From NCBI RefSeq assembly GCF_004959855.1, contig NZ_SPNT01000006.1, forward strand, positions 62,001 through 126,000: a stretch of 64,000 nt of DNA, read 5' to 3'. The stretch comes from Nitratireductor sp. XY-223. Its GTDB lineage: Bacteria > Pseudomonadota > Alphaproteobacteria > Rhizobiales > Rhizobiaceae. The translations under genes were made by a program, and so were the position numbers. The notes under the pieces are model-generated. The model was not told where the DNA came from. It saw nothing but the letters and a program-made list of their open reading frames with translations, and made no database searches. This document shows positions 9,001 to 31,020 of this stretch, piece after piece. The stretch's first letter is position 1. Each line of letters begins with the position of its first letter.

Positions 9001-9758
9001 ATAACGAGACCAGCCACGGCTTTGCCGCGGGAATTCAGGGCGATATCAACGAAAAGCTCTATCTGGGCATGGCCGGCTCCTATGAGCAGACGTCATTCCG
9101 CTCCGGGTCCAACGCCACTGGCGATGGACATCGTCCGCAGGCCGGCCTGGTGCTGAAATATATCAACGGCGGCACAAAGCTGGCCGGATCGCTCATCGGC
9201 GGCCTCGGCTCCTTCGACACGAGCCGCGTCGTCAATGTCGGCACGGTGGGCGGCATCGCCACGGCGACGCAGAAGGTGGCGTATCTGTCGCTCAATGTCA
9301 GGCTGGCACATCTCTACGATTTCGGCGGCACCTATCTGATGCCGACGGTCGATGGCGCGGCAACCTACATGCACCAGAAGGGGTTTACCGAAACCGGGGG
9401 CGGCCTCACCAATCTGACCATCGACAGCAGCTCGCAGGTCTACTGGTGGATCGCGCCGCACATGGAGGCGGGCGGCGAACTCGATCTCGGCGCATCAGTG
9501 CTTCGGGCCAAGGCCAAGGTCGGTTTACTGCAGCATCTCGGGGAAGTGCCGGCGGTCGCAGCCAATATCGACGGAACCCCGGCCGGCGTTCCCTCCGCCA
9601 TTATCAAAGCCGGCCAGGATAATACGCTGCTGACTCTTGCCGCCGGTCTGGACTGGATCGCCGGCAACGGCGTCAACCTGCAGGCGAATGTCAGCGGCCA
9701 GTTCGGCCCGAACACCACCAACAAGCAGGGTTCGCTGAAATTGACGGTTCCCTTCTAA
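3..9758 (+). CDS. Giant Gly-rich repeat autotransporter (5' end outside window)
   Basis: Type V secreted surface protein, about 3,250 residues visible. The reading frame is open from base 3 and the repeat pattern is already running there, so the true start and signal peptide lie upstream. The passenger, up to roughly base 7,990, holds about 42 copies of a degenerate unit averaging some 63 residues. Each unit combines a short beta-type segment, a GI-x-AQS(I/V)GGGGG loop and a second Gly-rich stretch. A non-repeat region (about 8,000-8,900) follows, then a C-terminal autotransporter beta-barrel of about 280 residues ending in a terminal Phe (LTVPF). The only two cysteines I noticed lie at the passenger/barrel junction. 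Known for the family: the barrel inserts in the outer membrane and the passenger is displayed. The likely role is adhesion or surface coating, but the ligand is unknown. Confidence 0.9.
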   Translation, partial: GNTVSVTNAGEIETRGVDAHGIQAQSIGGTGGNAGDAIGVVALGGSTPGAGGGNGGAVFVRNNTGSRILTKNHGSMGIFAQSVGGGGGNGGFAAGFLALGSGGSRGGNGGTVDVRTQAGSSIQTEGISGHGILAQSIGGGGGTGGSAGGLVALGGSGGAASHGGQILVVNRGFIITRNHEAKGIFAQSIGGGGGSASGTGGVMSLGGGGGSGGNGGIVTVDNSGAIETSGIGSDAILAQSIGGGGGSGAASGGLVALGGSGAQGGSGSTVSVANSGTLATSGRRARGILAQSIGGGGGSGGDTGGAVALGGSGGVASSGGNVIVSNSGQIDTSGNVSHGIQLQSIGGGGGDGGSVGGPVSIGGAGGAGGHGGTVTATNSGRISTGGNDSHGIFAQSVGGGGGSGGNSFAVGAFASVGIGGSGGNGGVGGTTTVNLGPRTVVINGVPTQIDPLITTEGDRSNGILAQSVGGGGGNGGFSTSIAAGAFGAVSVGIGGTGGSGGYGGQVQVNGNGAVTTQGVNADGILAQSVGGGGGNGGSVTSIAVAAGKGGAVSASFGVGGSGGAGGAGGRVQIRSGGSVTTNGVMSDGLIAQSIGGGGGNGGYSLSLSGAVSDTAAVGVAVGIGGRGGNGGSAGVVDVHYAGTVTTRQADSTGILLQSVGGSGGNGGFNVSGAVAGAGTAAGAVAAGVGGSGGGGGHGGLVAGVINGSVRTDAARSSGIVAQSVGGGGGNGAFNVSGSLSGSGTGAGAVSVGVGGSGGSGGSGGTVTMNHTGNITTMGTASSAFVSQSIGGGGGNGGFNVSSAVSASTGTGAASVGVGVGGFGGGGGSGGRVIADIAGDIATGGKDANGVLVQSVGGGGGNGAFNVTGGLAASSQGAATVGVGVGGFGGGGGQAGAATLRMTGDITTTKDNAYGALVQSLGGGGGSGGLNVSGTVSMSIGNSGAIGAGVGGFGGSGGSGQTVDGRVDGTVHTSGANAFGVLAQSVGGGGGQGGVNISGTLSLATKFSGTASVGIGGFGGTGGTGGNVDFSRTGNTVTTGVLSDAVTFQSIGGGGGNGAMNISSGIAGTTSGTSAAVNIGVGGFGGTGGGAGNVKGRVTGDVQALGINIPAGVPSEMLTLLRAQGSNGVVAQSVGGGGGNGGVNVSSGLSLGSLTGSGNYALTLGFGGFGGAGGNAGTVDLAVLAERKEVSGIVVAQGIIQSKGFGKSAVLAQSLGGGGGNGAINVSGGVSIDGGITAGIGGSGGNAGIGNTVIASVSGDVSAFGARSRGFVAQSVGGGGGDGAINISGGIQANTASANPSLVFGLGGAGGGGNASGTVTATQSGTVVATGVEAIGILAQSVAGGGGSGGLNVSADVAVGSGYNATIGIGGNGGAGANSKMVTLTSNGAVTVNGARTSNNPFGGTPLGPAGTNFADRANGILVQSIGGGGGSGGVNVAGAISPFGSPLAASVGGSGGAGGNAGAVLVNRGQTSQALLQTIGNNANALTAQSVGGGGGDAGINIVLAASLANPTGSQSLILAVGGSGGASGSASTVTVNQKGEIKTAGNHSVGLLAQSIGGGGGNANFNIGAGFNKDAKAVNLAIGGGAGNGGTGGAVTVDQTGNITTAGLGASAIIAQSIGGGGGNTALSLILNPGTGKSLDVTIGRTGGTGGAGGNVTVTADGVFTTAGDMATAIIAQSLGNGGGRSTATTVAVGAQSGTEKTKKSAAAQLSVGLDGGSGGTGGKVIVTVDGVVSTNGQASHGIHAQSIGGGGGTGGFVTNILFQESASAKVGVGGSGGAGAKSDTVDVTSSADITTNKADSHGILGQSIGGAGGTGGSAVTFAPLVGSASSNGSNSVTVGVGGSGGSGAEAEKVKIVSSGTIETKEGQSAGIVAQSIGGGGGSGGLVINETFVGGQNSNAANLGIGGSGGTGGLSRTVTVENTGNIKTAGKRSYGIQAQSVGGGGGNGSLVVNDTTSKPTAGSAANRLDINIGGSGGTGGSSGNVTVTNTNSARIDTGGENAHGIFAQAIGGGGGNGSAIFTQNIATGQKSILAGISIGGDGGSGSRSGNVLVTNDGAVQTLGDQAHGIFAQSIGGGGGNGGTSIARSVVLAKDINRLSPLVAIGGKGGSGEDAGDVVVNNTGTIRTEGKNSHGILAQSIGGGGGNASLGLAVANGSGNAISTLIANNLSMLVGSSGGGSGGLGGKVTVNHSGDITVTGQGSQAIKAQSINGGGGGLILDLKRATALGPGSLIPIGGGSTSVSSNPALEIIAGGKGTENSAAAAVSVNTTGTFGLTGHHNTGSSIQAIGGGGGTTLTQLVLAQTAGQVPGAIEIVSTLGGENGKNNNGAAITGSHAGGLIALGADTQGVLLQSIGGGGGRSTFTVDMTDGEIGLSALRAGGINGTSEAGGTVTYHIDDDVIVIGEQSVGVLAQSIGGGGGYQTFDTTPPPSSVSAAAALAAPVAAGFAAAALAAPPPVDVVLGSNGGTGNDGSAVNITRLGDTATAGDNSSALVHQSIGAGGGVEQVSAGGAQLNVTLGGQSGANGDGDAVTLNNTGIVSTAGSRSHAIVLQSIGGGGGAVFHDADATQVNMTLSAANSGDGGAVTLVQSGNVATSGRESFGIVLQSLGGGGGFIDGVFTGTAGGSGTGAGVDLTLDGNVETSHETSTAVLAQSAGTSGGNIAIHLKTGRLIAGGAKGIGVDLREGADNTVTNDGVITTMALVDGLAVSGTTGNDTIENNGLVTGDIKLAGGINAFNNRVDAARFNMGKTVDLGLASNRLFNNGIIELADTGKIETVSTTQLGGTFVQTATANIMADFDFVSGDTKVGKIDRIDATGSASLDGTFDLFVVNPNAAAPGTHEVTFFTTQQDMTSQNLVLNAPVSAVAEYDILYPSLKEAKFEYIIDFSPVGLNRNQTTFGDYINNVQLAGGSPKFADLVGTVFKIETLDGLKEAYDSLSPEPYATSLATTTVSAGNFADAMLSCNDRDGKYRFIAEHTCAWARITAVEQNYRGTIENFAYNETSHGFAAGIQGDINEKLYLGMAGSYEQTSFRSGSNATGDGHRPQAGLVLKYINGGTKLAGSLIGGLGSFDTSRVVNVGTVGGIATATQKVAYLSLNVRLAHLYDFGGTYLMPTVDGAATYMHQKGFTETGGGLTNLTIDSSSQVYWWIAPHMEAGGELDLGASVLRAKAKVGLLQHLGEVPAVAANIDGTPAGVPSAIIKAGQDNTLLTLAAGLDWIAGNGVNLQANVSGQFGPNTTNKQGSLKLTVPF

Positions 9759-10379: not shown

Positions 10380-11618
10380 CTAGCGGCCCGCATCTGAAAT
10401 CGCCTTGTACGCTTGTTTCAGACCCTCGGCGCCGCCCGTCATCTCATGCGGTTGCGGCGTGTGGCCTGCGGCTATCAAGCGGCGGGAGATCATGTGCACA
10501 GCGGGCTGGTTGATGGAATCGACGGCAACCAGCTTGCCGGCCGACAGGTGAAACACGCTGAATGCGTTGTCCTCGCGGTTGCCGGTCAGGATGTGCTCGT
10601 CGGCGCCGAAGGAAACGCCTACCATCTGGATCTTGGTATCGCCCATATCGGACCAGAACCAGGGCACGTCGTCATAGGCCCGGAGGGTCCCGGTTATGGT
10701 GCGTGCGGCATGTTTGGCGTGGTCGGTGGCGTTCTGCACCGACTCGAGCCGTACCTTCCGGTCGATCAGCCCGTGGCGGTAGTTCGCACAGTCGCCGATC
10801 GCAAGGATGTCCGCATTCGCAGTTCTCAGATGATCGTCCACGGCAATGCCGTTTTCGCAGGCCAGGCCGGCCTCGCGCGCAATCCGGTTGTCCGCATCGA
10901 CCCCGACGCCGACGATGACGAGATCCGCCGGCACAGGCGCCTGGTCCTTCACGCGGACGGCGGTGATGCGCCCGGCATTGCCGTCGACGGCCTCGATTGC
11001 CGTATCGGTGACGATCCGGATGCCGGCGGTTTGCGCCCGGGCATGCATGTGATCGGAGACCACCGGCGCGACGGCGCGGCCGACAAGGCGCGGCGCGGCC
11101 TCAAGCACCGTGACGTTCTTCGAAAGCCCGGCAAAGGTGAAGGCCAGTTCCATGCCGATGAAGCCGCCGCCGATAACGACGATGTCGTTCGCATCAGCCG
11201 CTGCATCGCGCAGCGCATTCGCGTCGGCAAGCGTGCGCAGGCTCAGGCAATTCGTGAAGCCGCCGTCGAGCGCCTCGATACTGCGCGCCTTTGCGCCCGT
11301 TGCCAGAACGGCGGTGCTGTAGCCGAGCTTGCGGCCGTCGGAGAGGCTGACCGTACGATCATGGGTATCGATACGCTCGACCGTTTGCCCGAGGGCCAGT
11401 TCGATGGCGTTGTCGCTGTAGAATCCTTCCGCTCGCAGCACCTGCGGCTGTGTTGCCGGGTCTTTCTGAAACGCCTTCGAGAGCGGCGGCTTGTGGTAGG
11501 GCAGCGTATCTTCCGCACTGATTAAAACGATCCTCCCGTCATATCCTTCCTGGCGCAGGCTTGCGCCCATCTGGGCGCCTGCATGGCCGCCTCCGATGAC
11601 GATCAACGGCTTGTTCAT
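10380..11618 (-). CDS. FAD-dependent NAD(P)H:ferredoxin reductase-type oxidoreductase
   Basis: A 412-residue pyridine nucleotide-disulphide oxidoreductase of the putidaredoxin/rhodocoxin reductase type. The N terminus carries the FAD-binding GGGHAGAQMG Rossmann motif, a second GGGFIGMELA motif near residue 155 binds NAD(P)H, and an AIGDCAN motif near residue 280 contacts FAD. The C-terminal domain matches reductase_C. Such enzymes pass electrons from NAD(P)H to a 2Fe-2S ferredoxin serving an oxygenase, but no ferredoxin or oxygenase gene is nearby. AGGGA sits just before the ATG. The gene diverges from the cluster A operon and shares its intergenic control region, so it is probably co-regulated. 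Its electron acceptor is unknown. Confidence 0.88.
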   Translation of the reverse strand: MNKPLIVIGGGHAGAQMGASLRQEGYDGRIVLISAEDTLPYHKPPLSKAFQKDPATQPQVLRAEGFYSDNAIELALGQTVERIDTHDRTVSLSDGRKLGYSTAVLATGAKARSIEALDGGFTNCLSLRTLADANALRDAAADANDIVVIGGGFIGMELAFTFAGLSKNVTVLEAAPRLVGRAVAPVVSDHMHARAQTAGIRIVTDTAIEAVDGNAGRITAVRVKDQAPVPADLVIVGVGVDADNRIAREAGLACENGIAVDDHLRTANADILAIGDCANYRHGLIDRKVRLESVQNATDHAKHAARTITGTLRAYDDVPWFWSDMGDTKIQMVGVSFGADEHILTGNREDNAFSVFHLSAGKLVAVDSINQPAVHMISRRLIAAGHTPQPHEMTGGAEGLKQAYKAISDAGR

Positions 11619-11672
11619 GTTCCCTCAACTCCCTTGTTTTTAGGCGGTTCTGATGGTTTTTCAATGCCGCCC

Positions 11673-11689
11673 TGATCAAAATTTGAACA
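11673..11689. promoter_or_regulatory. Near-perfect 17-bp palindrome in divergent control region
   Basis: TGATCAAAATTTGAACA is an inverted repeat, TGWTCAAA-W-TTTGAWCA, with one mismatched base pair. It lies between the divergent reductase and ThDP-enzyme genes, 7 bases before the RutR-like site. Its odd symmetry differs from the RutR box, so it may be a site for another regulator. No binding evidence exists. Confidence 0.4.
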
Positions 11690-11695
11690 AGTAGT

Positions 11696-11711
11696 TTGAC
11701 CGATTGATCAT
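11696..11711. promoter_or_regulatory. Putative RutR-like operator (with overlapping TTGACC)
   Basis: TTGACCGATTGATCAT matches 11 of the 14 specified positions of the E. coli RutR box TTGACCA-N2-TGGTCAA. It lies 43 bases before the cluster A operon, whose last gene encodes a RutR-type TetR repressor. TTGACC could also serve as a -35 element, with TATTAA at 11716 as a poorly spaced -10. The match is seen directly; the regulation is inferred. Confidence 0.5.
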
Positions 11712-11753
11712 ATCGTATTAACCTGAAGAAAAACAAGAGCCAGGGGATACTGA

Positions 11754-14132
11754 ATGTCAGCGCGCGAGAAGCTCGCGACGCTGAAGGACCTTGAGCGCAA
11801 GGTTCTTTGGCTGAGTGCATGGACAATCCACAATGCCAACCACATCCGTCCCAACGATGACGGGTTGAAGGTCGGCGGCCATCAGGCATCCTGCGCCTCA
11901 ATCGCGTCGCTGATGACGGCGCTCTATTTCTCGATCCTGCGCCCCGAGGACCGCGTTGCGGTCAAGCCCCACGCCGCGCCTGTCTTCCACGCAATCCAGT
12001 ATCTTCTTGGCAAGCAGTCGAAGGAAAAGCTGATCGATTTCCGCGGCTATGGCGGTGCGCAATCCTATCCGAGCCGCACCAAGGACACCGATGATGTCGA
12101 TTTCTCGACCGGTTCGGTCGGCCTTGGCGTCGCAATCACCGCATTCGCATCGATGGTGCAGGACTATGTCCGTGCCCGCGGCTGGGGGCATGGCTCAGAG
12201 GGTCGCATGATCGCGCTCGTCGGCGACGCCGAGCTCGACGAGGGCAACATTTACGAATGCCTGCAGGAGGGCTGGAAACAGGGGCTGCGCAATACCTGGT
12301 GGATCATCGACTACAACCGGCAGAGCCTTGACGGTGTCGTGCGCGAAGGGCTTTCCAAGCGCGTTGACGGCATATTCAGCGCCTTCGGTTGGGACGTGGT
12401 CCTGATGAAATACGGCGTTCTGCAGCGCGCCGCTTTCGAGGAGCCCGGCGGCGAGGCGCTGCGGGACTGGATCGATGACTGTCCGAACCAGCTCTATTCG
12501 GCGCTGACCTATCAGGGCGGCAAGGCATGGCGCGAGCGCCTGTCGGCGGATATCGGCGGCGAGCCCGATGTTGCCGACTTGCTTTCCCGCCGCTCGGACG
12601 AAGCGCTGGCGGAGCTCATGGAGAACCTGGGCGGTCATTGCCTGCAGACGATCCTCGAAACCCTTGGCGGTATCGATCACGACAGGCCGGTCGCCATCAT
12701 CGCCTATACGGTCAAGGGATGGGGGACGCCGCTGGCCGGCCACAAGGACAACCATGCCGGGCTGATGACCGCCGCACAGATGGAGGCGTTCCAGGCGTCC
12801 ATGAATATCCGCGGCGGTCATGAGTGGGATCACTTCGAAGGGCTGGCAACACCACCGGCCGACCTTGCGGCTTTTCTCAAGCAAGTCCCGTTCAGCGGCC
12901 CCATGCGCCGCCATGCGGCCAAAACCGTACCGGTGCCGCAGATCGCGTTGCCGGCAGACCGGGCGATCGCCACACAGACCGCCTTCGGAAAGATCCTGAA
13001 CGATATCGCCGCCTCCGGCAGCGCGCTTGCCGACCGCATCGTGACGACGTCGCCGGATGTCACCGTTTCGACCAATCTCGGCCCGTGGGTGAATCGGCGC
13101 AACCTCTTCTCGCGCACCGAAATCGCCGATACGTTCCATGAACAGCGCGTGCCGTCCGCCCAGAAGTGGCGTTTTTCGCCGGACGGTCAGCACATAGAGC
13201 TCGGCATTGCGGAAATGAACCTTTTCCTGCTGCTTGGCGCGGCGGGTCTCAGCCACTCGCTGTTCGGCGAGCGGTTGCTTCCGATCGGCACGCTCTATGA
13301 CCCGTTTATCGCCCGCGGCCTCGATGCGCTGAACTATGCCTGTTACCAGGATGCGCGCTTCATGCTGGTGGCAACACCGTCGGGCGTGTCGCTTGCGCCG
13401 GAGGGCGGTGCGCACCAGTCCGTCGGCTCGCCGCTGATCGGCATGAGCCAGGATGGCATCGCCGCTTTCGAGCCGGCTTTCGCCGACGAGCTCGCCGCGA
13501 TCATGGAATGGGCATTTGCCTATATGCAACGCGATGGCGAGGCAGTGCTCAATGAACGGACCTGGCTGCGCGACGAAACCGGCGGTTCGGTCTATCTGCG
13601 CCTGTCGACGCGTGCCATCGAGCAACCGCCGCAGCGCAGCGACGATGCGTTTCGGCAAGGCGTTATCGACGGGGCCTACTGGCTGCGAGAACCGGGACCG
13701 GGATGCGATGTGGTCATCGCCTATCAGGGCGTTGTTGCCACCGAGGCCATTGCCGCGGCCGGCACGATCGGCGACGCGCGCCGCAATGTCGGCGTGCTCG
13801 CGGTTACCTCCGCGGACCGTCTGAATGCCGGCTGGCAGGCGGCACAGCGCGAACGCATTCGCGGAAACGCGGCGGCGATCAGCCATATCGAACGGCTCCT
13901 GCAGCCGGTGTCGCGGGACGCGGCAATCGTAACGGTGATCGACGGGCATCCGGCGACGATGAGCTGGCTTGGCGGTGTCTGCGGACACCGCGCGGCCGGG
14001 CTCGGGGTCGAGCATTTCGGACAGACCGGAACGGTTGCCGATCTCTATGCGCATTTTGGCATCGACGCCAACTCCATAGCCGCAACGGCGGCGCGGCTGC
14101 TGCCGGGCAGGCCCGTGCGGCTTGCGATTTAG
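11754..14132 (+). CDS. AceE/transketolase-like thiamine diphosphate enzyme
   Basis: A 792-residue ThDP-dependent enzyme of the transketolase superfamily. The ThDP/Mg motif GDAELDEGN (about residues 157-165), followed by IIDYNRQSLDG, resembles homodimeric pyruvate dehydrogenase E1 (AceE) more than classical transketolase. An N-terminal PHAAPVFHAIQYLLG segment supplies the expected active-site His region. The pyrimidine-binding and C-terminal domains follow, with a transketolase-like ELGIAEMN segment in the middle. It is about 95 residues shorter than AceE, and no E2 or E3 gene lies nearby, so it probably acts alone on a 2-keto acid or ketose intermediate. It is the first gene of cluster A, with a short leader from the divergent promoter region. 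The exact substrate cannot be read from sequence. Confidence 0.82.
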   Translation: MSAREKLATLKDLERKVLWLSAWTIHNANHIRPNDDGLKVGGHQASCASIASLMTALYFSILRPEDRVAVKPHAAPVFHAIQYLLGKQSKEKLIDFRGYGGAQSYPSRTKDTDDVDFSTGSVGLGVAITAFASMVQDYVRARGWGHGSEGRMIALVGDAELDEGNIYECLQEGWKQGLRNTWWIIDYNRQSLDGVVREGLSKRVDGIFSAFGWDVVLMKYGVLQRAAFEEPGGEALRDWIDDCPNQLYSALTYQGGKAWRERLSADIGGEPDVADLLSRRSDEALAELMENLGGHCLQTILETLGGIDHDRPVAIIAYTVKGWGTPLAGHKDNHAGLMTAAQMEAFQASMNIRGGHEWDHFEGLATPPADLAAFLKQVPFSGPMRRHAAKTVPVPQIALPADRAIATQTAFGKILNDIAASGSALADRIVTTSPDVTVSTNLGPWVNRRNLFSRTEIADTFHEQRVPSAQKWRFSPDGQHIELGIAEMNLFLLLGAAGLSHSLFGERLLPIGTLYDPFIARGLDALNYACYQDARFMLVATPSGVSLAPEGGAHQSVGSPLIGMSQDGIAAFEPAFADELAAIMEWAFAYMQRDGEAVLNERTWLRDETGGSVYLRLSTRAIEQPPQRSDDAFRQGVIDGAYWLREPGPGCDVVIAYQGVVATEAIAAAGTIGDARRNVGVLAVTSADRLNAGWQAAQRERIRGNAAAISHIERLLQPVSRDAAIVTVIDGHPATMSWLGGVCGHRAAGLGVEHFGQTGTVADLYAHFGIDANSIAATAARLLPGRPVRLAI

Positions 14133-14183
14133 GCAGGGGCCCGCGATGAAGACCGGATTTGAGGCGGAACGGATTAATCAGTG

Positions 14184-14984
14184 ATGAAACGATACTGGTC
14201 CGACTATACAAGCGAAGCCTTCTCCAGGCTCGACCACGAGAACCTGATTGCCGTACTGCCGGTCGGGGCGACCGAGCAGCATGGCCCGCATTTGCCGCTT
14301 TGTGTCGATGCGGCGATCGCCGATGGTCTGGTCAGGGCGGTGGTTGAAAAGCTGCCGGAAGAAAATCCGGCGCTTTTTCTTCCGACCCAGGCCATCGGCA
14401 AGAGCGACGAGCACCGGCGCTATCCGGGAACGCTGACTTTCAGCGTGGAAACGCTGATGCGGACCTGGCTCGAAATCGGCGACTGCGTTGCTGCAAGCGG
14501 CGTGCGGAAACTGGTGCTCCTCAACAGCCACGGCGGACAGATCTCGACGATGGACATTGTCGCGAGGGAGCTGCGCATACGCCACTCCATGCTGGTGTTT
14601 TCGGTCAACTGGTTTGCCCTCGGCCTGCCGGACGGCCTCTATGGCGAGGAAGAACAGCGCTTTGGCGTTCACGCCGGCGACATGGAAACCTCGATGATGC
14701 TGGCGCTGACACCGGAGCTCGTCGACATGGACAAGGCGCGCGACTTTCGCCCGCTGATCGAGCGTTTCGAGCGTGACTACAGGCATATCGGCCTGGCACG
14801 CGGCGCAAAGCCCGGATGGCAGGCACAGGACCTTCATCCGGCGGGTGCCGCAGGCAATGCCGCGGCCGCGACCGCGGAAAAAGGCAGTGCAACGATCGAT
14901 CATGCGGCGGAACGCATCGTCGAGGTGCTGGAGGACGTTCACAGGGCCCCGCTCTCGTGGCTTGAAAACGAACCGGAATGGTAG
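14184..14984 (+). CDS. Creatininase-family metal-dependent hydrolase
   Basis: A 266-residue protein of the creatininase fold. The LPVGATEQHGPHLPL motif (about residues 25-39) holds the metal-binding Glu and His, followed by CVDAAIADG, LLNSHGGQ (about 113-120) and a HAGDMETSMM motif with the metal-binding Glu. Family members hydrolyse cyclic or linear amides (creatinine, formamidopyrimidines) or C-C bonds of cyclic ketones (IolN), in the cytoplasm. I took ATG 14184; a GTG directly before it (14181) is possible. It sits between the ThDP enzyme and the transporter ATPase, and the next gene begins 2 bases after its stop. The context suggests ring opening or an amide cleavage step, which is inference. 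Confidence 0.87.
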   Translation: MKRYWSDYTSEAFSRLDHENLIAVLPVGATEQHGPHLPLCVDAAIADGLVRAVVEKLPEENPALFLPTQAIGKSDEHRRYPGTLTFSVETLMRTWLEIGDCVAASGVRKLVLLNSHGGQISTMDIVARELRIRHSMLVFSVNWFALGLPDGLYGEEEQRFGVHAGDMETSMMLALTPELVDMDKARDFRPLIERFERDYRHIGLARGAKPGWQAQDLHPAGAAGNAAAATAEKGSATIDHAAERIVEVLEDVHRAPLSWLENEPEW

Positions 14985-14986
14985 GG

Positions 14987-15793
14987 ATGGAACAGCAAAG
15001 ACAACTTGGAGCCGGCGATGCGCTGATTGAAATGGACGGTGTCCACAAGCGCTTCGGCAACGGGACACTGGCGGTGGAGGGAATGTCCGTTTCCATCCAG
15101 CCAGGCGAATTTGTCAGTTTTCTCGGGCCGTCCGGATGCGGCAAGAGCACCGCGCTTCGCATGATTGCGGGCCTGCTGTCGGCATCAGCCGGTTCGATCA
15201 CCGTGAACGGCCATCCTGCGGGCGAGGGCGGTGACGGACGCGATGTCGGCTTTGTGTTCCAGGAGGCAACGCTGATGCCGTGGGCGAATGTCTTCGACAA
15301 CGTCTACCTGCCGCTGCGGCTTGCGGGCGCTTCGAGGAAAGCCGCGACGCCTGAGGTCGAGGAAGCGCTCGCCATGGTCGGGCTCTCGAGTTTCCGCAGT
15401 TCCTATCCGCGCGAGCTTTCCGGCGGCATGAAGATGCGCGTTTCCATTGCCCGCGCCATGGTCACGCGGCCGGCGCTGCTGCTGATGGACGAACCTTTTG
15501 CGGCGCTCGATGAAATGACGCGCTTCAAGCTCAACAACGACGTGCTGAAACTGTGGGAAGAGCACAAGCTGACGGTCATATTCGTCACCCACAGCGTGTT
15601 TGAATCCGTTTACCTGTCGAACCGGGTGATGGTGATGGCGGCGCGGCCCGGCCGGGTCGTCAACGATATCGCGCTGCCGGGCGGCTATCCGCGCACCGAT
15701 GCCTACAGGACCTCGCAGGAATTTGCCGAAAACACGCGCCTTGTGACGAAGGCGCTGGAAGGAACGCTGAGCCATGCTGAAATCGATCACTGA
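14987..15793 (+). CDS. ABC transporter ATP-binding protein, NitT/TauT type
   Basis: A 268-residue ATPase of the SsuB/TauB/ThiZ group. Walker A is GPSGCGKST (residues 47-55), the Q-loop is FVFQEATLMPW, the signature is LSGGM (about 144-148) and Walker B is LLLMDEP (about 164-170) with the switch His in FVTHSV. It energises import with the adjacent permease and the binding protein at 19260. The start is the ATG 2 bases after the creatininase stop; an in-frame ATG at 14978 would overlap that gene. The permease gene starts inside its 3' end, indicating translational coupling. Confidence 0.92.
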   Translation: MEQQRQLGAGDALIEMDGVHKRFGNGTLAVEGMSVSIQPGEFVSFLGPSGCGKSTALRMIAGLLSASAGSITVNGHPAGEGGDGRDVGFVFQEATLMPWANVFDNVYLPLRLAGASRKAATPEVEEALAMVGLSSFRSSYPRELSGGMKMRVSIARAMVTRPALLLMDEPFAALDEMTRFKLNNDVLKLWEEHKLTVIFVTHSVFESVYLSNRVMVMAARPGRVVNDIALPGGYPRTDAYRTSQEFAENTRLVTKALEGTLSHAEIDH

Positions 15794-16631
15794 AGACGGC
15801 GAACAGGACGGCGTTGCTCTCAATGTCGAACTGTTGAAGAAGGAACAGCTGGAACGCCGCCTGCGCATTATCATGCCCGCGAGCGCCCTTGCCCTGGCCC
15901 TTTTGATCTGGGAGGCGCTCGTCATCTATTACGAGGTGCCGCACTATCTCATCCCGGCGCCAAGCCGTATCGGCGAGACGCTGATTACCGACGGGCCGTC
16001 GCTGATGACGTCCGCGTGGTTTACGGTCAAGCTGACGCTGTTTTCGCTGGCGCTCGCCATCATCGGCGGTGTCGCTCTTGGCATGATATTCGCACTGTCG
16101 CGCACGGTGGAAATGAGCCTGTTTCCCTTTGCGGTCATTTTGCAGGTCACGCCGATCGTGGCGATCGCGCCGCTGATCCTCATCTATGTTCACAGCACGT
16201 TCGTGGCGCTGCTGATCTGTGCCTGGATCGTCGCCTTTTTTCCAATCCTGTCCAACACTGTGATCGGACTGCGCAGCGCCGACCACAATCTGCGCGACCT
16301 GTTCACGCTTTACAAGGCAACGCCCTGGCAGCGGCTGCGTTATCTGCTTGCACCCAGCGCGCTGCCCTATTTCATGGCGGCGCTGAAGATCGCCGGCGGC
16401 CTGGCGCTGATCGGCGCGGTGGTTGCGGAATTCGTCGCCGGTACCGCCGGCCAGAATTCCGGCCTTGCATCACGCATTCTTGAATCGAGCTTCCGCAACG
16501 AGATCCCGCGCATGTTCGCGGCGCTCTTCCTGGTCTCGCTTCTGGGCATCGTGATTTTCCTGGCCACCAGCTGGATGTCGAAACTCGTGCTCGGCAGATG
16601 GCACGAGAGCGAGGTCAAGAGGGAGCGATGA
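15774..16631 (+). CDS. ABC transporter permease, NitT/TauT type
   Basis: A 285-residue inner-membrane protein with about six hydrophobic segments and the BPD_transp_1 fold. The coupling (EAA) region is around ADHNLRDLFTLYKATPWQRL (roughly residues 164-183). The N terminus is a charged cytoplasmic extension of about 35 residues. Its gene overlaps the ATPase gene by 20 bases and the deaminase gene by 4, so the transporter and catabolic enzyme are tightly coupled. Only one permease is present, so it should act as a homodimer. Confidence 0.92.
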   Translation: MLKSITEDGEQDGVALNVELLKKEQLERRLRIIMPASALALALLIWEALVIYYEVPHYLIPAPSRIGETLITDGPSLMTSAWFTVKLTLFSLALAIIGGVALGMIFALSRTVEMSLFPFAVILQVTPIVAIAPLILIYVHSTFVALLICAWIVAFFPILSNTVIGLRSADHNLRDLFTLYKATPWQRLRYLLAPSALPYFMAALKIAGGLALIGAVVAEFVAGTAGQNSGLASRILESSFRNEIPRMFAALFLVSLLGIVIFLATSWMSKLVLGRWHESEVKRER

Positions 16632-17839
16632 ACACGTCGGTCAAAACAACCGATCGTCGCGCGACGGGCTTTGGAACGACCATGCGGGGCGTGCTGGTCG
16701 GCGGGGCGTCAAAGCCGGTCGATATCCTGATAGAGGGCGCGCGCATCAAGGCAATCGAGCCCTCGCCGCAAAGTGGCGGCGGCGTCGTCCTTCCGTTGAT
16801 GAGCGATATCCACGTTCATCTCGACAAGACATACACGGTGGACCGCACCGGCAGCGGCGCGGCGTCGCTGTTCGATGCGATCGACCGGATGGACGCCGAC
16901 AAGGCGCTCTGGACACCACAGGATATCCGCGCGCGTGCTGCGCGTGCTCTTGAAAAGGCCTACGCGCACGGTGTCAGCGTCATGCGCTCCCATGTGGACT
17001 GGACCGAACCGGACGTGCCGATGGCCTGGAGCGTGCTCAACGAGCTGGCTCAGGAGTGGCGTGGACGCATTCACCTCCAGGTCGTGGCGCTGTGCCCGCT
17101 CGATCTGATTGCCGAGGCGGGCGAGCCGATTGCGGCACGCGCAGGCGCGGACGGCGGTGTTTTAGGCGCCTTCGTCTACCGCAATGACAATCTGGCGGAA
17201 AAAATGCGCCGGGTGTTCCTGCTTGCCGACCGCAACGATCTGGAGCTCGACTTTCACGTTGACGAGGGTCTCGAGTACGAGGCGCGGGGTTTCGAGGCCA
17301 TCGTTGCCGAGGCTGAGAAGCGCGGCGGCGGCCGCCAGGTGCTTTGCGGCCACGTCTGCTCGCTGGCGCTGCGCGCGCCTGAAGATATCGCGCGCCTCGT
17401 GGCCCGGGCGGCAGCGGCGAAAATCGGACTAGTCAGCCTTCCGACAACCAACAGTTATCTGCAGGACCGCAACAGCGGACGCACACCCCGGTTTCGCGGT
17501 CTTGCCCCGATCAAGGAAGCGCGTGCCGCCGGAATGGACGTCTTTCTGGCGTCCGACAATGTGGCGGATGTTTTCTACCCCTATGGCGACTACGACCCGT
17601 TCGATGTTTTACGGGCCGGTGTGATGGCCGCGCAGCTCGAACCCGGAGACTGGCTTGACGCCATATCCGGTTCCGCCGCGCGCTGGTGCGGCGCCGAGGC
17701 CGGCGATCTGGCCGTGGGCGCCAAAGCGGATTTCCTCCGCTTCGACGCAACGGATCTCCGCGATCTTGTTTCCCGGCTGGGTGCACCGCGCGAAGTGTGG
17801 CGCGATGGAAGAACAGATTTGGAAAGGACGAATCCATGA
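16628..17839 (+). CDS. Cytosine deaminase-like amidohydrolase
   Basis: A 403-residue amidohydrolase with the CodA-type metal and catalytic pattern: HVHLD (about residues 62-66), HVDEG (about 209-213, with the general-base Glu), GHVC near 240 and SDN near 308. CodA-like enzymes deaminate cytosine, isoguanine, creatinine and related heterocycles in the cytoplasm. The substrate here is not determined. I placed the start at the ATG following GAGGGAGCG, overlapping the permease stop; a longer in-frame reading exists but would bury 30 residues in the permease gene. The end overlaps the next gene as ATGA. Together with the creatininase homologue it argues for a nitrogen heterocycle as substrate. Confidence 0.85.
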   Translation: MNTSVKTTDRRATGFGTTMRGVLVGGASKPVDILIEGARIKAIEPSPQSGGGVVLPLMSDIHVHLDKTYTVDRTGSGAASLFDAIDRMDADKALWTPQDIRARAARALEKAYAHGVSVMRSHVDWTEPDVPMAWSVLNELAQEWRGRIHLQVVALCPLDLIAEAGEPIAARAGADGGVLGAFVYRNDNLAEKMRRVFLLADRNDLELDFHVDEGLEYEARGFEAIVAEAEKRGGGRQVLCGHVCSLALRAPEDIARLVARAAAAKIGLVSLPTTNSYLQDRNSGRTPRFRGLAPIKEARAAGMDVFLASDNVADVFYPYGDYDPFDVLRAGVMAAQLEPGDWLDAISGSAARWCGAEAGDLAVGAKADFLRFDATDLRDLVSRLGAPREVWRDGRTDLERTNP

Positions 17840-19221
17840 GTGAGGCGGCAATTGCCAATCGCGCTATCGACTGGGACGCATTCCGGGGCGAACTGGACGG
17901 CATCTCGGTCATCGACGACGAAAAAACCGTCAAGGTGCGCTCCGGCGACTACTTCTGGTACAGCCCGATCCTCAATGACATGCTGAAGGACAAGAGCGGC
18001 GAGCTGCTTGTCATTCCCAAAACCCAGGACGAAGTGCGGACCATCGCCTCCGCCGCCGCACGGCACCGCGTGCCCGTTACCATACGCGGCGGCGGAACCG
18101 GCAATTACGGGCAGTGCGTGCCGCTGGAAGGCGGTATCGTCCTCGACCTTACGAAGCTGAACCGCATCATCGAGATCAAATCCGGCAGCGTCCGGGTCGA
18201 AGCCGGTGCCCGCATCGCCACGCTTGACGATGCCTGCGCCGAGACCGGTCAGCAGCTTCTCATGTATCCGTCCACGCGGCGTATCGCCACGATCGGCGGC
18301 TTCCTGTCGGGGGGCTCGGGCGGTATCGGATCGCTACGCCACGGCATGCTGCGCGATCACGGCAATGTCCGCTACGTGAAGGTGATGACCGTCGAGGCGG
18401 AGCCCAGGATCATCGAGCTCTATGCCGACGACATCCAGAAGGTTCACCACGCGTACGGCACCAACGGGATCATTCTGGAGCTTGAACTGGCGCTGACCGC
18501 AGCGACCGACTGGATCCACTGTGCGGCGCTGTTCGATGGTTACGAGACGGCGCTGCGGTTTGCCATGACGGCGCAGGAAAGCGGGCTCGACTGCTATCTG
18601 CTGACAACGGTGGAGCGGCGATTTGCGCCGTACTACACGAAATTCGGCGACCTCTTTCCCGATAACCGGGATGCGGTCTTTGCGATGGTCGCTCCGGATG
18701 AAATGCCCCGGTTCGAGGCGCTGGCCTCCGAAACCGGCGGGTCTGTCTCATTTGCCATGAAGAAGAAGGATCTGAGGGAAGCCGGCCTGCAGCCCGCCTA
18801 TGAATGCGGCTGGAACCACACGACGTTGCAGGCGCTGAAGGTCGACAAGAGCTGGACGTACCTCCAGGTCGCCTATCCGCATCCGTTCGATCCGGTGCTC
18901 GTCATGGAACAGATGGAACGCTACGGCGACGACGTCTACTGGCACCACGAAATGGCCCGCATGGACGGCCGCGTTCAGATCTTTGCGCTGCCGCTCGTCA
19001 AATATCGCGGGAAGGACGCGATCTACGCCATGATCGGCGAAATGGAAGACCGGGACGGCTGCACGATCTACGACCCGCATGTCGTCACCATCGAGGATGG
19101 CGGCATGAAGGAGATCGACACCGCACAAATCGATTTCAAGAAACTGGCCGATCCGCACGGCCTGATGAATCCGGGCAAAACCCGGGGATGGACCGCCGAC
19201 ATGGCGGTTCAAGGCGAATAA
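17836..19221 (+). CDS. FAD-binding (PCMH-type) oxidase/dehydrogenase
   Basis: A 461-residue flavoprotein of the FAD_binding_4 (vanillyl-alcohol-oxidase-like) family. The segments VTIRGGGTGNYGQCVPLEGG (about residues 77-96) and TIGGFLSGGSGGIGSLRHG (about 155-173) form the FAD-binding domain. The C terminus has a GLMNPGK motif typical of glycolate oxidase/D-lactate dehydrogenase relatives. It would oxidise an alcohol, hydroxy acid or similar intermediate. The start is the ATG overlapping the deaminase stop (ATGA). It lies within the cluster A operon, 38 bases before the binding-protein gene. The electron acceptor and substrate are unknown. Confidence 0.83.
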   Translation: MSEAAIANRAIDWDAFRGELDGISVIDDEKTVKVRSGDYFWYSPILNDMLKDKSGELLVIPKTQDEVRTIASAAARHRVPVTIRGGGTGNYGQCVPLEGGIVLDLTKLNRIIEIKSGSVRVEAGARIATLDDACAETGQQLLMYPSTRRIATIGGFLSGGSGGIGSLRHGMLRDHGNVRYVKVMTVEAEPRIIELYADDIQKVHHAYGTNGIILELELALTAATDWIHCAALFDGYETALRFAMTAQESGLDCYLLTTVERRFAPYYTKFGDLFPDNRDAVFAMVAPDEMPRFEALASETGGSVSFAMKKKDLREAGLQPAYECGWNHTTLQALKVDKSWTYLQVAYPHPFDPVLVMEQMERYGDDVYWHHEMARMDGRVQIFALPLVKYRGKDAIYAMIGEMEDRDGCTIYDPHVVTIEDGGMKEIDTAQIDFKKLADPHGLMNPGKTRGWTADMAVQGE

Positions 19222-19259
19222 CAAAAAGAACCAAACAGAGGGCAATAGGAGATAGAAAC

Positions 19260-20273
19260 ATGAAGGATACTCTGAAAATTGTAGCCGCTGCGGCAATGCT
19301 GGCGGCGAGCGCCGGCCTTGCGGCCGCCGCCGACAAGGTGGTTATGGGCACGAACTGGCTCGCCCAGGGTGGCCATGGCGGCTTCTACCAGGCGCTGGCC
19401 GACGGCACCTACGAGAAGTACGGCCTTGACGTCGAGATCAGGATGGGCGGACCGCAGGTCAACAACCGGCCGATGCTTCCGGCCGGACGCCTCGACTTCC
19501 TGATGGCGGGCAACCTTCTGCTGTCGTTCGACAATGTGCGCAATGATATCCCGACCGTCGTGGTGGCCGCCTTCTTCCAGAAGGATCCGCAGGTGCTGAT
19601 GGCGCATGACGGGGCCTATTCCAGTTTTGACGATCTGAAGAATGCGCCGACGATCCTGATTTCAAAGGATGGCCAGTTCAGCTTCTGGAAGTGGCTGGTA
19701 ACGGATCACGGTTTCGCCAATGAGCAGCTCAGGCCTTACGGCTACAATCTTGCCCAGTTCCTGTCCGACGACAAAATGGTCCAGCAGGGCTATGGCACCG
19801 CCGAGCCGATTTATGCTGCGGCGGAAGGCGCGAAGCCCGTTGCCTATCTGCTTGCCGACCAGGGCTGGAACACCTATTCAACGACCATCGAAACACGGGC
19901 CGAACTTGTTGAAAACAATCCCGAACTTGTCCAGCGCTTCATCGATGCCTCCATCGAGGGCTGGTACAACTTTCTCTACGGCGACCGCACGGCAGCCTAT
20001 GCGCTGATCATGAAAGACAACCCGGAAATGACCAAGGAGAAGCTCGACAAGGAGATGGCGCAGTTCGAAAAACTCGGCATCATCGATGTCGGCGATGCAA
20101 AGGAAAAGGGCATCGGCGCGATGAGCACGGAGCGCATAAAGGCCTTCTACGACACGGCCGTCAATTCCGGAATCATCGAGGAAGGATCGGTCGATCTTTC
20201 GAAGGTTGCGACCGACCAGTTCGTCAACAAGGGCCATGGCCTCGATATCGCCAAGAAGCTCCAGGGCAATTGA
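19260..20273 (+). CDS. ABC substrate-binding protein, NMT1/THI5-like
   Basis: A 337-residue periplasmic binding protein. Residues 1-23 form a Sec signal peptide ending ALA-type (GLAAAAD). The mature part begins with the NWLAQGGHGGFYQALADGTY segment typical of NMT1/THI5-like proteins such as ThiY and RibY. Relatives bind pyrimidine precursors of thiamine, riboflavin, nitrate or sulfonates. AGGAG precedes the ATG at good spacing. It is separated by 38 bases from the FAD oxidase, and matches the upstream NitT/TauT ATPase and permease. The ligand is probably an aromatic or heterocyclic compound by context (inference). Confidence 0.9.
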   Translation: MKDTLKIVAAAAMLAASAGLAAAADKVVMGTNWLAQGGHGGFYQALADGTYEKYGLDVEIRMGGPQVNNRPMLPAGRLDFLMAGNLLLSFDNVRNDIPTVVVAAFFQKDPQVLMAHDGAYSSFDDLKNAPTILISKDGQFSFWKWLVTDHGFANEQLRPYGYNLAQFLSDDKMVQQGYGTAEPIYAAAEGAKPVAYLLADQGWNTYSTTIETRAELVENNPELVQRFIDASIEGWYNFLYGDRTAAYALIMKDNPEMTKEKLDKEMAQFEKLGIIDVGDAKEKGIGAMSTERIKAFYDTAVNSGIIEEGSVDLSKVATDQFVNKGHGLDIAKKLQGN

Positions 20274-20282
20274 GGAGAAAGC

Positions 20283-20876
20283 GTGCGTATTCTGCTCATT
20301 TTCTGTCATCCCTATGAGGAGAGTTACGGCGCGGCTCTATTCGAATGCGCAAAGACAGCGCTTTCGGCGCGCGGACATGACGTCCGCGCGCTCGATCTTT
20401 ACCGGGACGGTTTCGAGCCGATACTCGGGCGCGAAGAATGGCTGACCTATATCGGCGAGACGGAAAAGAACATCGCCGCGGTCAAAAGCCATGTCGATGC
20501 CTTGCAGTGGGCCGAAGGCCTGGTCCTGATCTATCCCACATGGATGTACGGTCCGCCGGCAATGCTCAAGGGCTGGATGGAACGGGTCTGGCTGCCCGGC
20601 GTTGCCTTTGATGTCGCGCCCGGCAAACACAAGAGGGCGGTCGGTGCGCTGAAGAATATCCGCCTTTTCATCGGCATTACGACGTCGGGTTCGCCCTGGT
20701 GGTGGTTGCGAATTGTGCGCGATCCGGGCCGAAGCCTGTTCATGCGGGCCCAGCGGGTGCTATTCCATCCCCTGTGCCGCATGCGTTGGCTTCAGTTGCA
20801 CAATATGAACCACACGACGCAAGGCGACAGGGAGCGTTTCCTGAACAAGGTCGAGCGCGCCCTGTCCAAGGTCTGA
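20283..20876 (+). CDS. Flavodoxin-fold NAD(P)H-dependent oxidoreductase
   Basis: A 197-residue FMN/FAD quinone-reductase-like protein (NQO2/YheF/MdaB group). The N terminus has the CHPYEESYGAAL phosphate-binding loop, LIYPTWMYGPPAMLKGWMERV (about residues 80-100) is the family core, and a GITTSGSPWWW loop follows. It starts at GTG 20283, preceded by GAGGAG, 9 bases after the binding-protein stop. Such enzymes perform two-electron reduction of quinones or flavins and some act on heterocycles. Its place between transporter and RidA genes suggests it handles a pathway intermediate. Confidence 0.85.
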   Translation: MRILLIFCHPYEESYGAALFECAKTALSARGHDVRALDLYRDGFEPILGREEWLTYIGETEKNIAAVKSHVDALQWAEGLVLIYPTWMYGPPAMLKGWMERVWLPGVAFDVAPGKHKRAVGALKNIRLFIGITTSGSPWWWLRIVRDPGRSLFMRAQRVLFHPLCRMRWLQLHNMNHTTQGDRERFLNKVERALSKV

Positions 20877-20887
20877 CCGGAGATTTC

Positions 20888-21343
20888 ATGTCCGACGATA
20901 TCGCCAAACCACTCGCCCGCTACGCCGCCTTCAAGCGGCGGGGCGACTTCATCTTCATGTCCGGGGTGATCGCCGTCGATCCGGACAGCAAACGGATCGT
21001 TGCCGGCTATGAGGATCTGCCCGATTCCGCCCGCTCGGCGCTCGGCGAGACCGGCGAATTTTCCGTCGATTTCAAGGAGGGTCCGATCAGGGCGCAGAGC
21101 TGGTATGTGCTGGACCGTATCCGTTCGATGATCGAGATGAATGGCGGCCAGATGAGTGACGTTTTCAAACTCGTGCAGTATTTCAAGGACTTGCGCGACT
21201 TTCCCGACTACAGCCGGGTGCGTGGCCTGTTTTTCCCCGATGAGCCGCCGGTCTCGACCGTCGTCGAGGTCAGCGGCATGATGCCGAGCGCCGAAATCCT
21301 CATCGAAGTCGAAGCGACTGCCTATCTGCCGGAGAAATCATGA
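20888..21343 (+). CDS. RidA/YjgF/UK114-family protein (RutC-like)
   Basis: A 151-residue RidA-family protein. It has FIFMSGVIAVDP near the N terminus, the helix around RIRSMIEMNGGQMSDVFKLV, and the conserved ending MPSAEILIEVEATAY. RidA proteins hydrolyse reactive enamines/imines such as 2-aminoacrylate, and RutC acts on 3-aminoacrylate in pyrimidine degradation. The start was put at ATG 20888, 11 bases after the previous stop. The stop overlaps the regulator start (ATGA). In this cluster it would clear an imine or enamine released by the deaminase/oxidase steps, which is inference. Confidence 0.85.
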   Translation: MSDDIAKPLARYAAFKRRGDFIFMSGVIAVDPDSKRIVAGYEDLPDSARSALGETGEFSVDFKEGPIRAQSWYVLDRIRSMIEMNGGQMSDVFKLVQYFKDLRDFPDYSRVRGLFFPDEPPVSTVVEVSGMMPSAEILIEVEATAYLPEKS

Positions 21344-21969
21344 GCGCCCGCGAAAAAGTTCTCGACCGACGCCAGAAGATCCGCCAGGCCATCCACGAGG
21401 CGGCGATCGAGGAATTTTCGGCCAACGGGCTCGTCGGCGCCTCGACGCAGGCGATCGCCAAACGGGCCGGCCTCTCGAAACCGCAGCTCCACTATTACAT
21501 ATCCTCCAAGGAGGAGCTCTACGAGGAAACGCTGCTCTTCATCGTCGACAAGTGGAAGGACCAGTTCTTCCTGTCGATTCGGTCGGACGATCCGAAGACG
21601 GTCATCTCGGAATATATCGCCATCAAGGTGAGGCACGCACTTGCCGAGCCGAAGCTCTGCCGCCTGTTCGCCAACGAGGTGGCGCGCGGCGCGCCGATCC
21701 TGAAGCGTCACTGGTCGGCATCGCGGGAATCGGTCGAAAAGGCCGCCGACATCATGCGGTCGTGGATTGCCGACGGGAAGATCAAGCCGGTCGATCCCTA
21801 TCTCTTCCAGATGGAGATGTGGGCCGTCACCCAGCATTTCGCCGACTACGAGGCGCAGGTGCGCTTCATGCTCGACCTGGGTGAAGACCACCCCATCGAC
21901 GAGGAGCGGATCATCGCCGACGTCACCGCGTTGTTCCTGCGCGCATGCGGGTTGGATCCTGAGTCTTAG
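21340..21969 (+). CDS. RutR-like TetR-family transcriptional regulator
   Basis: A 209-residue regulator. The N-terminal TetR helix-turn-helix spans about residues 25-60 (ASTQAIAKRAGLSKPQLHYYISSKEELY). The ligand domain matches RutR of E. coli in the CRLFANEVARGAPIL and PVDPYLFQMEMWAVTQHFADYEAQV blocks. RutR senses uracil/thymine and represses pyrimidine degradation. It is the last gene of cluster A, translationally coupled to the RidA gene, and a RutR-like site lies before the first gene, so it probably autoregulates the operon. The effector may be a pyrimidine-like intermediate. Confidence 0.88.
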   Translation: MSAREKVLDRRQKIRQAIHEAAIEEFSANGLVGASTQAIAKRAGLSKPQLHYYISSKEELYEETLLFIVDKWKDQFFLSIRSDDPKTVISEYIAIKVRHALAEPKLCRLFANEVARGAPILKRHWSASRESVEKAADIMRSWIADGKIKPVDPYLFQMEMWAVTQHFADYEAQVRFMLDLGEDHPIDEERIIADVTALFLRACGLDPES

Positions 21970-24445: not shown

Positions 24446-24449
24446 CGAA

Positions 24450-25442
24450 ATGGCCACCACCCAACCCCTTGTCGATTGTCTGCAATATGCCAATTGGTCG
24501 GAGCCGATCTTCCGCCAGATGCGTGACGGCGGCGTCCATGCTGTTCATGTGACGATCGCCTACCACGAGTGCTTCCGGGAAATGGTGCTGAACATCGAAA
24601 ACTGGAATGCAAATTTCGAGCGTTATCCGGATCTGATTTTCGCCGGGCGCAGCGGAGACGATGTCCGGCGTGCCATGCGTGAGGGCCGCACCGCCATTTT
24701 TTTCGGTTTTCAGAACCCGTCCCCGATCGAAGACGATCTCGGGCTGGTGGAAATCTGCCACACCCTCGGTGTTCGGTTCATGCAGCTCACCTACAACAAC
24801 CAGTCGCTGCTGGCGACCGGCTGCTATGAAAACGAAGATACGGGTATTACCCGTTTCGGCCGGCAGGTGATCGCCGAGATGAACCGGGTCGGCATGGTTG
24901 TCGACATGAGTCATTCGGCGGAGCGGTCGACGCTGGAAGCGATGGAGCTTTCCCGGCGGCCGATCGCGATTACCCATGCCAACCCGGACTGGTGGCACCC
25001 GGCCATGCGCAACAAATCCGACACGGTCTTACGGGCCTTGGCGGAAAGCGGCGGCATGCTGGGCTTTTCAATGTATCCGCATCACCTCCAAAACGGGTCC
25101 GGCTGCACGCTTGAGAGCTATTGCGCAATGATTGCCGGGGCGGCGGAACGCTACGGCGTGGGCCATATCGGGATCGGATCGGATCTGTGCCAGGACCAGC
25201 CGGACAGCGTTGTAACCTGGATGCGCAACGGGCGCTGGACAAAGCAGCTCGATTTCGGCGAAGGATCCAGTGCGGCGCCCGGCTTTCCCGGACAGCCGTC
25301 CTGGTTCAGGAACAACCGCGATTTCGGCAACATATCCGGGGGCCTGCGCAAAGTCGGATTTTCGGAAGAGGATGTCGCCGCGATCATGGGCGGCAACTGG
25401 CTGCGTTTTTATGACGAATCCTTCGGAGCCGAGGGACAATGA
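24450..25442 (+). CDS. M19 membrane-dipeptidase-family protein with altered zinc site
   Basis: A 330-residue TIM-barrel protein of peptidase family M19. It keeps DMSHS (about residues 152-156) and ITHAN (about 173-177), the two late His ligands, and an IGSDL motif. The N-terminal His-x-Asp metal motif is replaced by LVDCLQYANWS, and FGFQNPSPI stands where the bridging Glu is usually found. This pattern resembles the 'dipeptidase' gene in pseudomonad glycine betaine/dimethylglycine operons (PA5396-like). I chose the ATG at 24450, 4 bases after the ALDH stop; the frame is open further upstream inside the ALDH gene. The stop overlaps the next gene (ATGA). True peptidase activity is doubtful. Confidence 0.8.
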   Translation: MATTQPLVDCLQYANWSEPIFRQMRDGGVHAVHVTIAYHECFREMVLNIENWNANFERYPDLIFAGRSGDDVRRAMREGRTAIFFGFQNPSPIEDDLGLVEICHTLGVRFMQLTYNNQSLLATGCYENEDTGITRFGRQVIAEMNRVGMVVDMSHSAERSTLEAMELSRRPIAITHANPDWWHPAMRNKSDTVLRALAESGGMLGFSMYPHHLQNGSGCTLESYCAMIAGAAERYGVGHIGIGSDLCQDQPDSVVTWMRNGRWTKQLDFGEGSSAAPGFPGQPSWFRNNRDFGNISGGLRKVGFSEEDVAAIMGGNWLRFYDESFGAEGQ

Positions 25443-27750: not shown

Positions 27751-27762
27751 CGGGAGTTGCGA

Positions 27763-28770: not shown

Positions 28771-28803
28771 CTTCAGTTTTTTTGAAATCTACCTAAAATG
28801 TTT

Positions 28804-28820
28804 CGATTTGCCTGAAATCG
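28804..28820. promoter_or_regulatory. Inverted repeat upstream of betaine-type binding-protein gene
   Basis: CGATTTGCCTGAAATCG has perfect 6-base arms with a 5-base spacer. A TTTGAAAT half-site lies at 28781-28788. The GAAAT/ATTT half-sites resemble those at the LysR/ALDH control region, suggesting a second LysR site that controls the transporter genes. Confidence 0.4.
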
Positions 28821-31016: not shown

Positions 31017-31020
31017 CGTC

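Follow-up and report, generated by a model that had tools for sequence, protein, structure and literature searches.

A probable pterin uptake and catabolism operon in Nitratireductor sp. XY-223, with relatives in other proteobacteria

The stretch of Nitratireductor sp. XY-223 analyzed here spans 64,000 nucleotides of contig NZ_SPNT01000006.1 (positions 62,001 to 126,000; hereafter the window, whose coordinates are used throughout) and carries a gene cluster that probably serves the uptake and breakdown of pterins, the ring compounds of folate. Ten genes run in the same direction: E1, CRN, the ATPase and permease of an ATP-binding cassette (ABC) transporter, AHY, FOX, SBP, FLX, Rid and TetR, accompanied by FdR, a divergent flavoprotein gene (Table 1). 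An initial annotation of this DNA spoke of nine coupled genes, one fewer than the co-directed run contains. The genes it named lie where it placed them, and the four-base ATGA overlaps that it listed are all present, at 16628 between permease and AHY, at 17836 between AHY and FOX, and at 21340 between Rid and TetR. The starts given for CRN (an ATG at 14184), SBP (19260) and Rid (20888) are probable ones. Related loci are designated L and sampled genomes of the same order G, each followed by a number.

Table 1. Genes of the cluster and its conserved upstream element, in window coordinates
Feature	Coordinates	Strand	Basis or remark
FdR, ferredoxin-reductase-type FAD/NAD(P) flavoprotein	10380..11618	-	Pfam Pyr_redox_2 and Reductase_C; probable electron supply, optional
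Conserved element TAGTTTGACCGATTG	11692..11706	+	Overlaps a possible -35 box; candidate promoter/operator of TetR
E1, AceE-like thiamine diphosphate (ThDP) enzyme, 792 aa	11754..14132	+	TIGR00759, 170 bits; first gene after the element, not core
CRN, creatininase-fold amidohydrolase	14184..14984	+	PF02633, 246 bits
NitT/TauT-type ABC ATPase	14978..15793	+	Family profile matches
NitT/TauT-type ABC permease	15774..16631	+	Family profile matches
AHY, putative pterin-deaminase-type amidohydrolase ("cytosine deaminase" in other annotations)	16628..17839	+	43-44% identity to Variovorax AHYs; tree; lacks CodA Gln156
FOX, FAD-linked oxidase/oxygenase of the 6v42 family	17836..19221	+	Structure match and tree
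SBP, NMT1/THI5-like periplasmic binding protein of the transporter	19260..20273	+	PF09084, 64 bits
FLX, flavodoxin-fold NAD(P)H oxidoreductase, probable electron donor of FOX	20283..20876	+	PF02525
Rid (YjgF) protein without the RidA arginine	20888..21343	+	Best PDB match 3lyb
TetR-family regulator, RutR-like	21340..21969	+	TIGR03613, 130.5 bits; best PDB match RutR 3loc

The AlphaFold model of FOX (pLDDT 90.3, built from 33 sequences) identifies PDB entry 6v42 as the closest structural homolog, with a template modeling (TM) score of 0.91 and 43% identity over 448 columns; a sequence search retrieves the same entry at 397 bits. The next structures reach a TM score of only 0.75 at 19% identity. 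The entry is titled "Crystal structure of the flavin oxygenase with cofactor bound involved in folate catabolism". Over almost its entire length, FOX agrees with 6v42/6v43 in fold and family; it also shares the motifs GTGNYGQ, WNHTT and NPGK and has relatives that reside in the same kind of cluster. Apart from the modest identity, it differs in belonging to a separate clade. In a tree of 83 of 93 rows, from which a length filter removed 10 (L022, L023, L038, L039 and L040 among them) and in which over-long frames were trimmed to their last 480 residues, the window protein falls into a 12-row clade (support 100/99) with Variovorax paradoxus L041 and Herbaspirillum, whereas 6v42 groups with Hoeflea inside a large Rhizobium-type group. 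Each of the 12 rows in the window clade has an AHY at its locus, as does every member of the 34-row 6v42 group other than 6v42 itself, which has no locus here. The regulators differ as well: a TetR gene occurs in 10 of the 11 close loci of the window clade, as opposed to a LysR gene in the Rhizobium loci. Among the loci compared, the nearest FOX to 6v42 is that of Hoeflea L055 (86% identity), whose locus carries CRN, Rid, SBP, ATPase, permease, AHY, FOX and FLX. When 297 genomes of the window's order are searched with the 6v42 chain, 91 contain a match at E<=1e-170 (best 76% identity), and the XY-223 genome has none at this threshold. The window cluster is a divergent, little-described version of the cluster found in other proteobacteria.

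For AHY, the reference point is the pterin deaminase of Variovorax sp. F1. This 399-residue enzyme is reported to deaminate folic and pteroic acid and is 37% identical to Arad3529; its cloning relied on a primer in a conserved downstream "endoribonuclease" gene, and the forward primer encodes MKLEAVR (PMC9513972). The AHY of Variovorax WDL1 (L040) begins with the same MKLEAVR, is 396 residues long and has a Rid gene immediately next to it, inside a FOX cluster; 18 of 21 bases of the F1 forward primer (3 mismatches) match at its start codon. The AHY of Variovorax L041, likewise in a FOX cluster, contains the start MKLEALR. Here the primer finds no site at 3 mismatches, and at 4 it finds the gene start together with an unrelated site that scores equally. 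The window AHY is 43-44% identical to these Variovorax proteins, which stand in for the F1 enzyme, as its likely orthologues, in our tree (71 rows, quick method, with 5 of 63 AHY rows removed by a length filter). The tree separates CodA and ten unlinked paralogues from the remaining 60 rows with a Shimodaira-Hasegawa-like approximate likelihood ratio (SH-aLRT) support of 99. Fifty-eight of those 60, the window included, come from FOX loci and two (L165 and L166) lie away from FOX matches. The window protein and L040/L041 belong to one 20-row set (SH-aLRT 88), a modest support that suggests AHY sits beside the Variovorax pterin-deaminase-like enzymes. The initial annotation had left the class of substrate open; the title of the FOX homolog and the agreement of the Variovorax proteins with a demonstrated pterin deaminase in start, length and neighbor now narrow it.

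The AHY proteins also depart from CodA in the active site. The column of Gln156, which we take to be the substrate-binding glutamine of CodA, holds Pro in the window protein and Gln in 0 of the 60 AHY-side rows, compared with 11 of 11 in the comparison group. The window AHY keeps the equivalents of CodA H61, H63, H214, E217, H246 and D313, presumably the metal ligands and acid/base residues; the metal ligands are present in all 60 AHY-side rows and E217 in 59. With the F1 deaminase and Arad3529 (EC 3.5.4.11), AHY would share the amidohydrolase group, the metal ligands and the Rid and FOX neighbors, a comparison made through the Variovorax relatives, at the 43-44% identity given above.

The pairing of AHY with FOX is conserved. 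Among the 297 genomes, FOX occurs in 108, AHY (E<=1e-50) in 107 and both in 102; the two genes are separated by <=500 bp in 95 of the 102 and by <=12 kb in 97. FOX is absent within 12 kb for 13 of the 110 AHY matches. Only 2 of 8 genomes of the genus itself contain FOX, which makes the cluster accessory. In genus g49, several genomes (G055, G100, G136 and others) each have three FOX matches, two of which lie about 5 kb apart.

A wider sample was drawn with a FOX search of genome contigs, of which the best 80 of 510 relatives were sorted by record title into 55 proteobacterial and 24 cyanobacterial loci, with 1 verrucomicrobial locus left out of both counts. Homologs were counted by tblastn (E<=1e-5, 40% cover) in stretches of up to 10 kb on each side, and the counts for ATPase, regulator and reductase may include unrelated homologs. 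The 55 proteobacterial loci contain homologs of CRN in 42, AHY in 48, SBP in 48, the permease in 47, the ATPase in 50, Rid in 34 and FLX in 43. CRN, AHY and all three transporter components occur together in 37 of the 55; among the 43 loci represented by 20 kb or more, 32 have all five. The rare co-occurrence that would have spoken against a functional unit is thus not borne out. A tblastn search of plasmids with FOX returned 173 records, 9 of them 60-80% identical, and annotated neighborhoods show most of the set recurring in varied gene order in Mameliella, Roseateles, Nitratireductor, three Rhizobium records, Klebsiella, Pantoea and Pseudooceanicola, with partial versions in Agrobacterium F2 and Haematobacter. 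The Agrobacterium F2 (L026) and Bradyrhizobium (L072) variants contain an isopenicillin-N-synthase-like gene and no AHY match. On five cyanobacterial contigs (L094, L098, L101, L107 and L108; one Prochlorococcus, one Synechococcus), AHY lies just upstream of FOX, and the queries used detect no further cluster gene apart from a 24% FdR match in L108.

Two members of the window set are variable neighbors and not part of the core. E1 is far from AceE (170 bits against a TIGR00759 cut-off of 860), and its family of approximately 790-800 residues (the window protein and L112-L119) is present in 141 of the 297 genomes, usually unlinked to FOX. E1 lies within 13 kb of FOX only in XY-223 and in three genomes of one genus, as judged by visual comparison; distances were computed for 18 E1 places, and pairs on different draft contigs cannot be judged. 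Elsewhere, its surroundings show no constant partner among ten neighbors scanned (six loci, mostly nearest neighbors). We considered E1 as a core member and rejected this, given that it is common in the order yet usually unlinked to FOX. The close-type clusters L022 and L037 do have genes 70-71% identical to E1 nearby, so recruitment into this clade is possible, and in the window E1 is placed between the promoter element and CRN. An FdR homolog accompanies 8 of 11 close relative loci. The L032 cluster, probably from the same genus, has neither an E1 nor an FdR homolog at the locus. The proposal in the initial annotation that the genes form one pathway therefore stands for most of them, which constitute a conserved unit that looks as if it takes up and degrades a nitrogen heterocycle, and does not extend to E1 and FdR as core members.

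The remaining enzymes are more constant. A reductase-type homolog (FLX, PDR/VanB type, FdR or ferredoxin) is found at 50 of the 55 proteobacterial FOX loci, and at 46 of the 48 with AHY. The type varies by lineage: Rhizobium types carry FLX, Klebsiella and Variovorax carry PDR, and Mameliella and Roseateles have FdR plus a 2Fe-2S ferredoxin. This near-constant neighbor fits a FOX that acts as an oxygenase and needs an outside electron donor. The Mameliella cluster ferredoxin has a 53% homolog elsewhere in the strain's own genome. CRN scores below the cut-offs of all three NCBIfam models that it matches (98.6 bits against 235 for creatininase, TIGR04448), and the DNA of the creatininase-fold gene gives no match against E. 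coli genomes. The window Rid is 61 and 66% identical to the Klebsiella and Pantoea cluster Rids and 32% identical to that of the close relative Mameliella; the Rid slot is therefore filled from different subfamilies. The Arg of the PAR stretch in 2dyy, which we take to be the catalytic arginine of the RidA imine hydrolase, is replaced by Ser in the window Rid, and this Ser is invariant among the aligned cluster Rids (8 of 8). The arginine-less Rid4-7 subfamilies have been called mysterious (PMC4433059).

TetR, the last gene of the operon, falls short of the RutR family cut-off (TIGR03613, 130.5 bits against 368), and its nearest solved structure is RutR 3loc (93 bits, including the stretch WAxTQHxAD). 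Ahead of the first operon gene, TAGTTTGACCRATYG occurs with <=1 mismatch in 9 of 12 close loci (the window at 11692, L021, L022, L023 and L032-L036). Of the three others, L037 has a different palindrome, the L038 contig starts at CRN, and L039 shows no CRN; in L040-L043 the element is not found at one mismatch. In the 6.19 Mb genome, the 14-base core pattern is matched exactly only by the 11692 site and has nine matches at 1 mismatch, compared with five for a control pattern. Allowing up to two mismatches, the window contains 2 matches against 1.08 expected, and the case for the element therefore rests on its conserved position. The RutR operator consists of TTGACC half-sites. One TTGACC lies at 11696, where it could double as a -35 box; its partner half-site is imperfect in the window, and L021, L022 and L033 show none. 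We regard 11692-11706 as a candidate promoter/operator of TetR.

The cluster is best read as an operon for the uptake and catabolism of pterins, to which we assign a probability of roughly 0.78. The NitT/TauT-type transporter would import a pterin or a folate fragment. AHY, by its relation to the demonstrated pterin deaminase, would then strip the 2-amino group from the pterin ring to yield a lumazine-type 2,4-dioxopteridine and ammonia. FOX, as its family suggests, may oxidize the pteridine ring, drawing electrons from FLX or from FdR and a ferredoxin, and CRN could hydrolyze an amide of the oxidized ring. The arginine-less Rid protein may handle an unstable intermediate, E1 might conceivably decarboxylate or oxidize the resulting oxo or imino acid in this strain, and TetR probably senses the uracil-like pteridine ring and acts at the conserved element.

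Several observations weigh against this assignment. With 3 mismatches allowed, the F1 reverse primer matches neither L040 nor L041, and its best sites (7 mismatches) lie outside the Rid genes; the link to the F1 deaminase consists of seven start residues, length and gene context. Gln156 is retained in the ten unlinked paralogues, but their E217 and D313 columns deviate from CodA, which itself occupies a long branch; the comparison group is therefore not proven to consist of cytosine deaminases. The best NCBIfam model of AHY is itself named cytosine deaminase (327.6 bits, cut-off 403). FOX is only 43% identical to 6v42, whose role is taken from the entry title. AHY (E<=1e-50) is absent within 12 kb of FOX in 11 of the 108 FOX genomes, one of which (G317) has a shorter AHY match adjoining FOX at a contig end. 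The 24 cyanobacterial loci include AHY in 5 and CRN in 3, leaving 19 without AHY. Given these FOX loci that lack AHY, FOX may act on several substrates. Finally, a Pfam and NCBIfam scan of the cluster genes (the rest of the genome was not searched) finds no carboxypeptidase G-type gene, so folate itself may not be the substrate.

Some of these points would suit a different pyrimidine-like heterocycle, such as a modified pyrimidine, a purine or a hydantoin, if AHY and FOX are related to folate enzymes and the substrate was switched in the divergent clade. The split between the window and 6v42 clades of FOX and the existence of variants that lack AHY are in keeping with such a switch, and any pyrimidine-like ligand would suit the RutR-like regulator and the NMT1/THI5-like binding protein. 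We nevertheless consider it unlikely: the well-supported window FOX clade takes in Variovorax paradoxus L041, the clusters of both L040 and L041 contain a Rid gene and an AHY whose start is of the published type, and all 60 non-CodA rows, of which 58 come from FOX loci, keep the metal ligands and lack Gln156. A chance juxtaposition of an ABC operon and unrelated enzymes is very improbable. The variable presence of E1 and FdR would agree with it, but Alpha-, Beta- and Gammaproteobacteria all have the core, arranged in several gene orders, and the co-occurrence counts refute it for the core, though not for E1 as a pathway member. Degradation of cytosine or creatinine by a CodA-type deaminase and a creatininase, as the annotations of several relatives ("cytosine deaminase", "creatininase family protein") and the name of the best AHY model would have it, is scarcely tenable when both enzymes score below their family cut-offs and CodA Gln156 is absent throughout the AHY side.

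Returning to pterins, a bolder version of this reading is that the operon encodes a complete, unpublished ring-opening route, comprising deamination, reductase-fed flavin oxygenation, ring hydrolysis by CRN, a Rid step other than imine hydrolysis, a lineage-specific ThDP decarboxylation and a RutR-like repressor that senses the lumazine-type ring. As a whole, we hold this to be less likely than not. If true, it would provide the first function for a class of arginine-less Rid proteins, and a related oxidase-deaminase gene pair would reach marine picocyanobacteria.

Nearly every cell makes folate and pterins, yet we came across little about genes for breaking the pterin ring. Judged by titles and the beginnings of abstracts among the matches listed, the open-access literature yielded nothing on the cluster as a unit, with subscription journals mostly outside the scope of the search. 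The cluster joins a deaminase anchored by a cloned enzyme and an oxygenase anchored by a PDB entry to a transporter, CRN, Rid and a regulator. If the pterin assignment holds, the annotations "cytosine deaminase" and "creatininase" would need correction in many genomes, FOX being present in 108 of the 297 sampled, and a breakdown route for vitamin B9 becomes directly testable.

Elsewhere in the window, a + strand open frame at 18-9758 (3246 aa) has no Pfam match at E 0.001. The genes at 22994-32202 look like a separate catabolic unit, with an aldehyde dehydrogenase, an M19 dipeptidase, a 566-residue protein without a Pfam match, DUF3726, an Ldh_2 dehydrogenase and an OpuAC-type ABC transporter.

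As the initial annotation held, the cluster does not correspond to the Rut, reductive pyrimidine or creatinine pathways. These routes and that for cytosine are rejected on family cut-offs, on genes not seen among the cluster proteins and on active-site residues. The Rut system (RutA-G, RutR) combines the regulator RutR and a Rid protein with an oxygenation that depends on flavin and a separate reductase. The window cluster has a RutR-like TetR, a Rid protein and probably a comparable oxygenation; unlike Rut, its FOX is a FAD_binding_4 protein, and a Pfam scan of ten cluster proteins (the rest of the genome was not searched) finds no RutA- or RutB-type family. The lum cluster for riboflavin and lumichrome differs in its two-subunit ThDP decarboxylase, P450 and Rieske dioxygenase, and the main text of its description contains none of the terms creatinin, RidA and folate (PMC12746152). 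Its likeness to the window cluster would lie in the breakdown of a vitamin ring, the hydrolysis of a pyrimidinedione ring and the use of a ThDP enzyme; as that text describes it, lumichrome breakdown includes the ThDP decarboxylation of a heterocyclic acid (PMC12746152), which may serve as a loose precedent for the role of E1.

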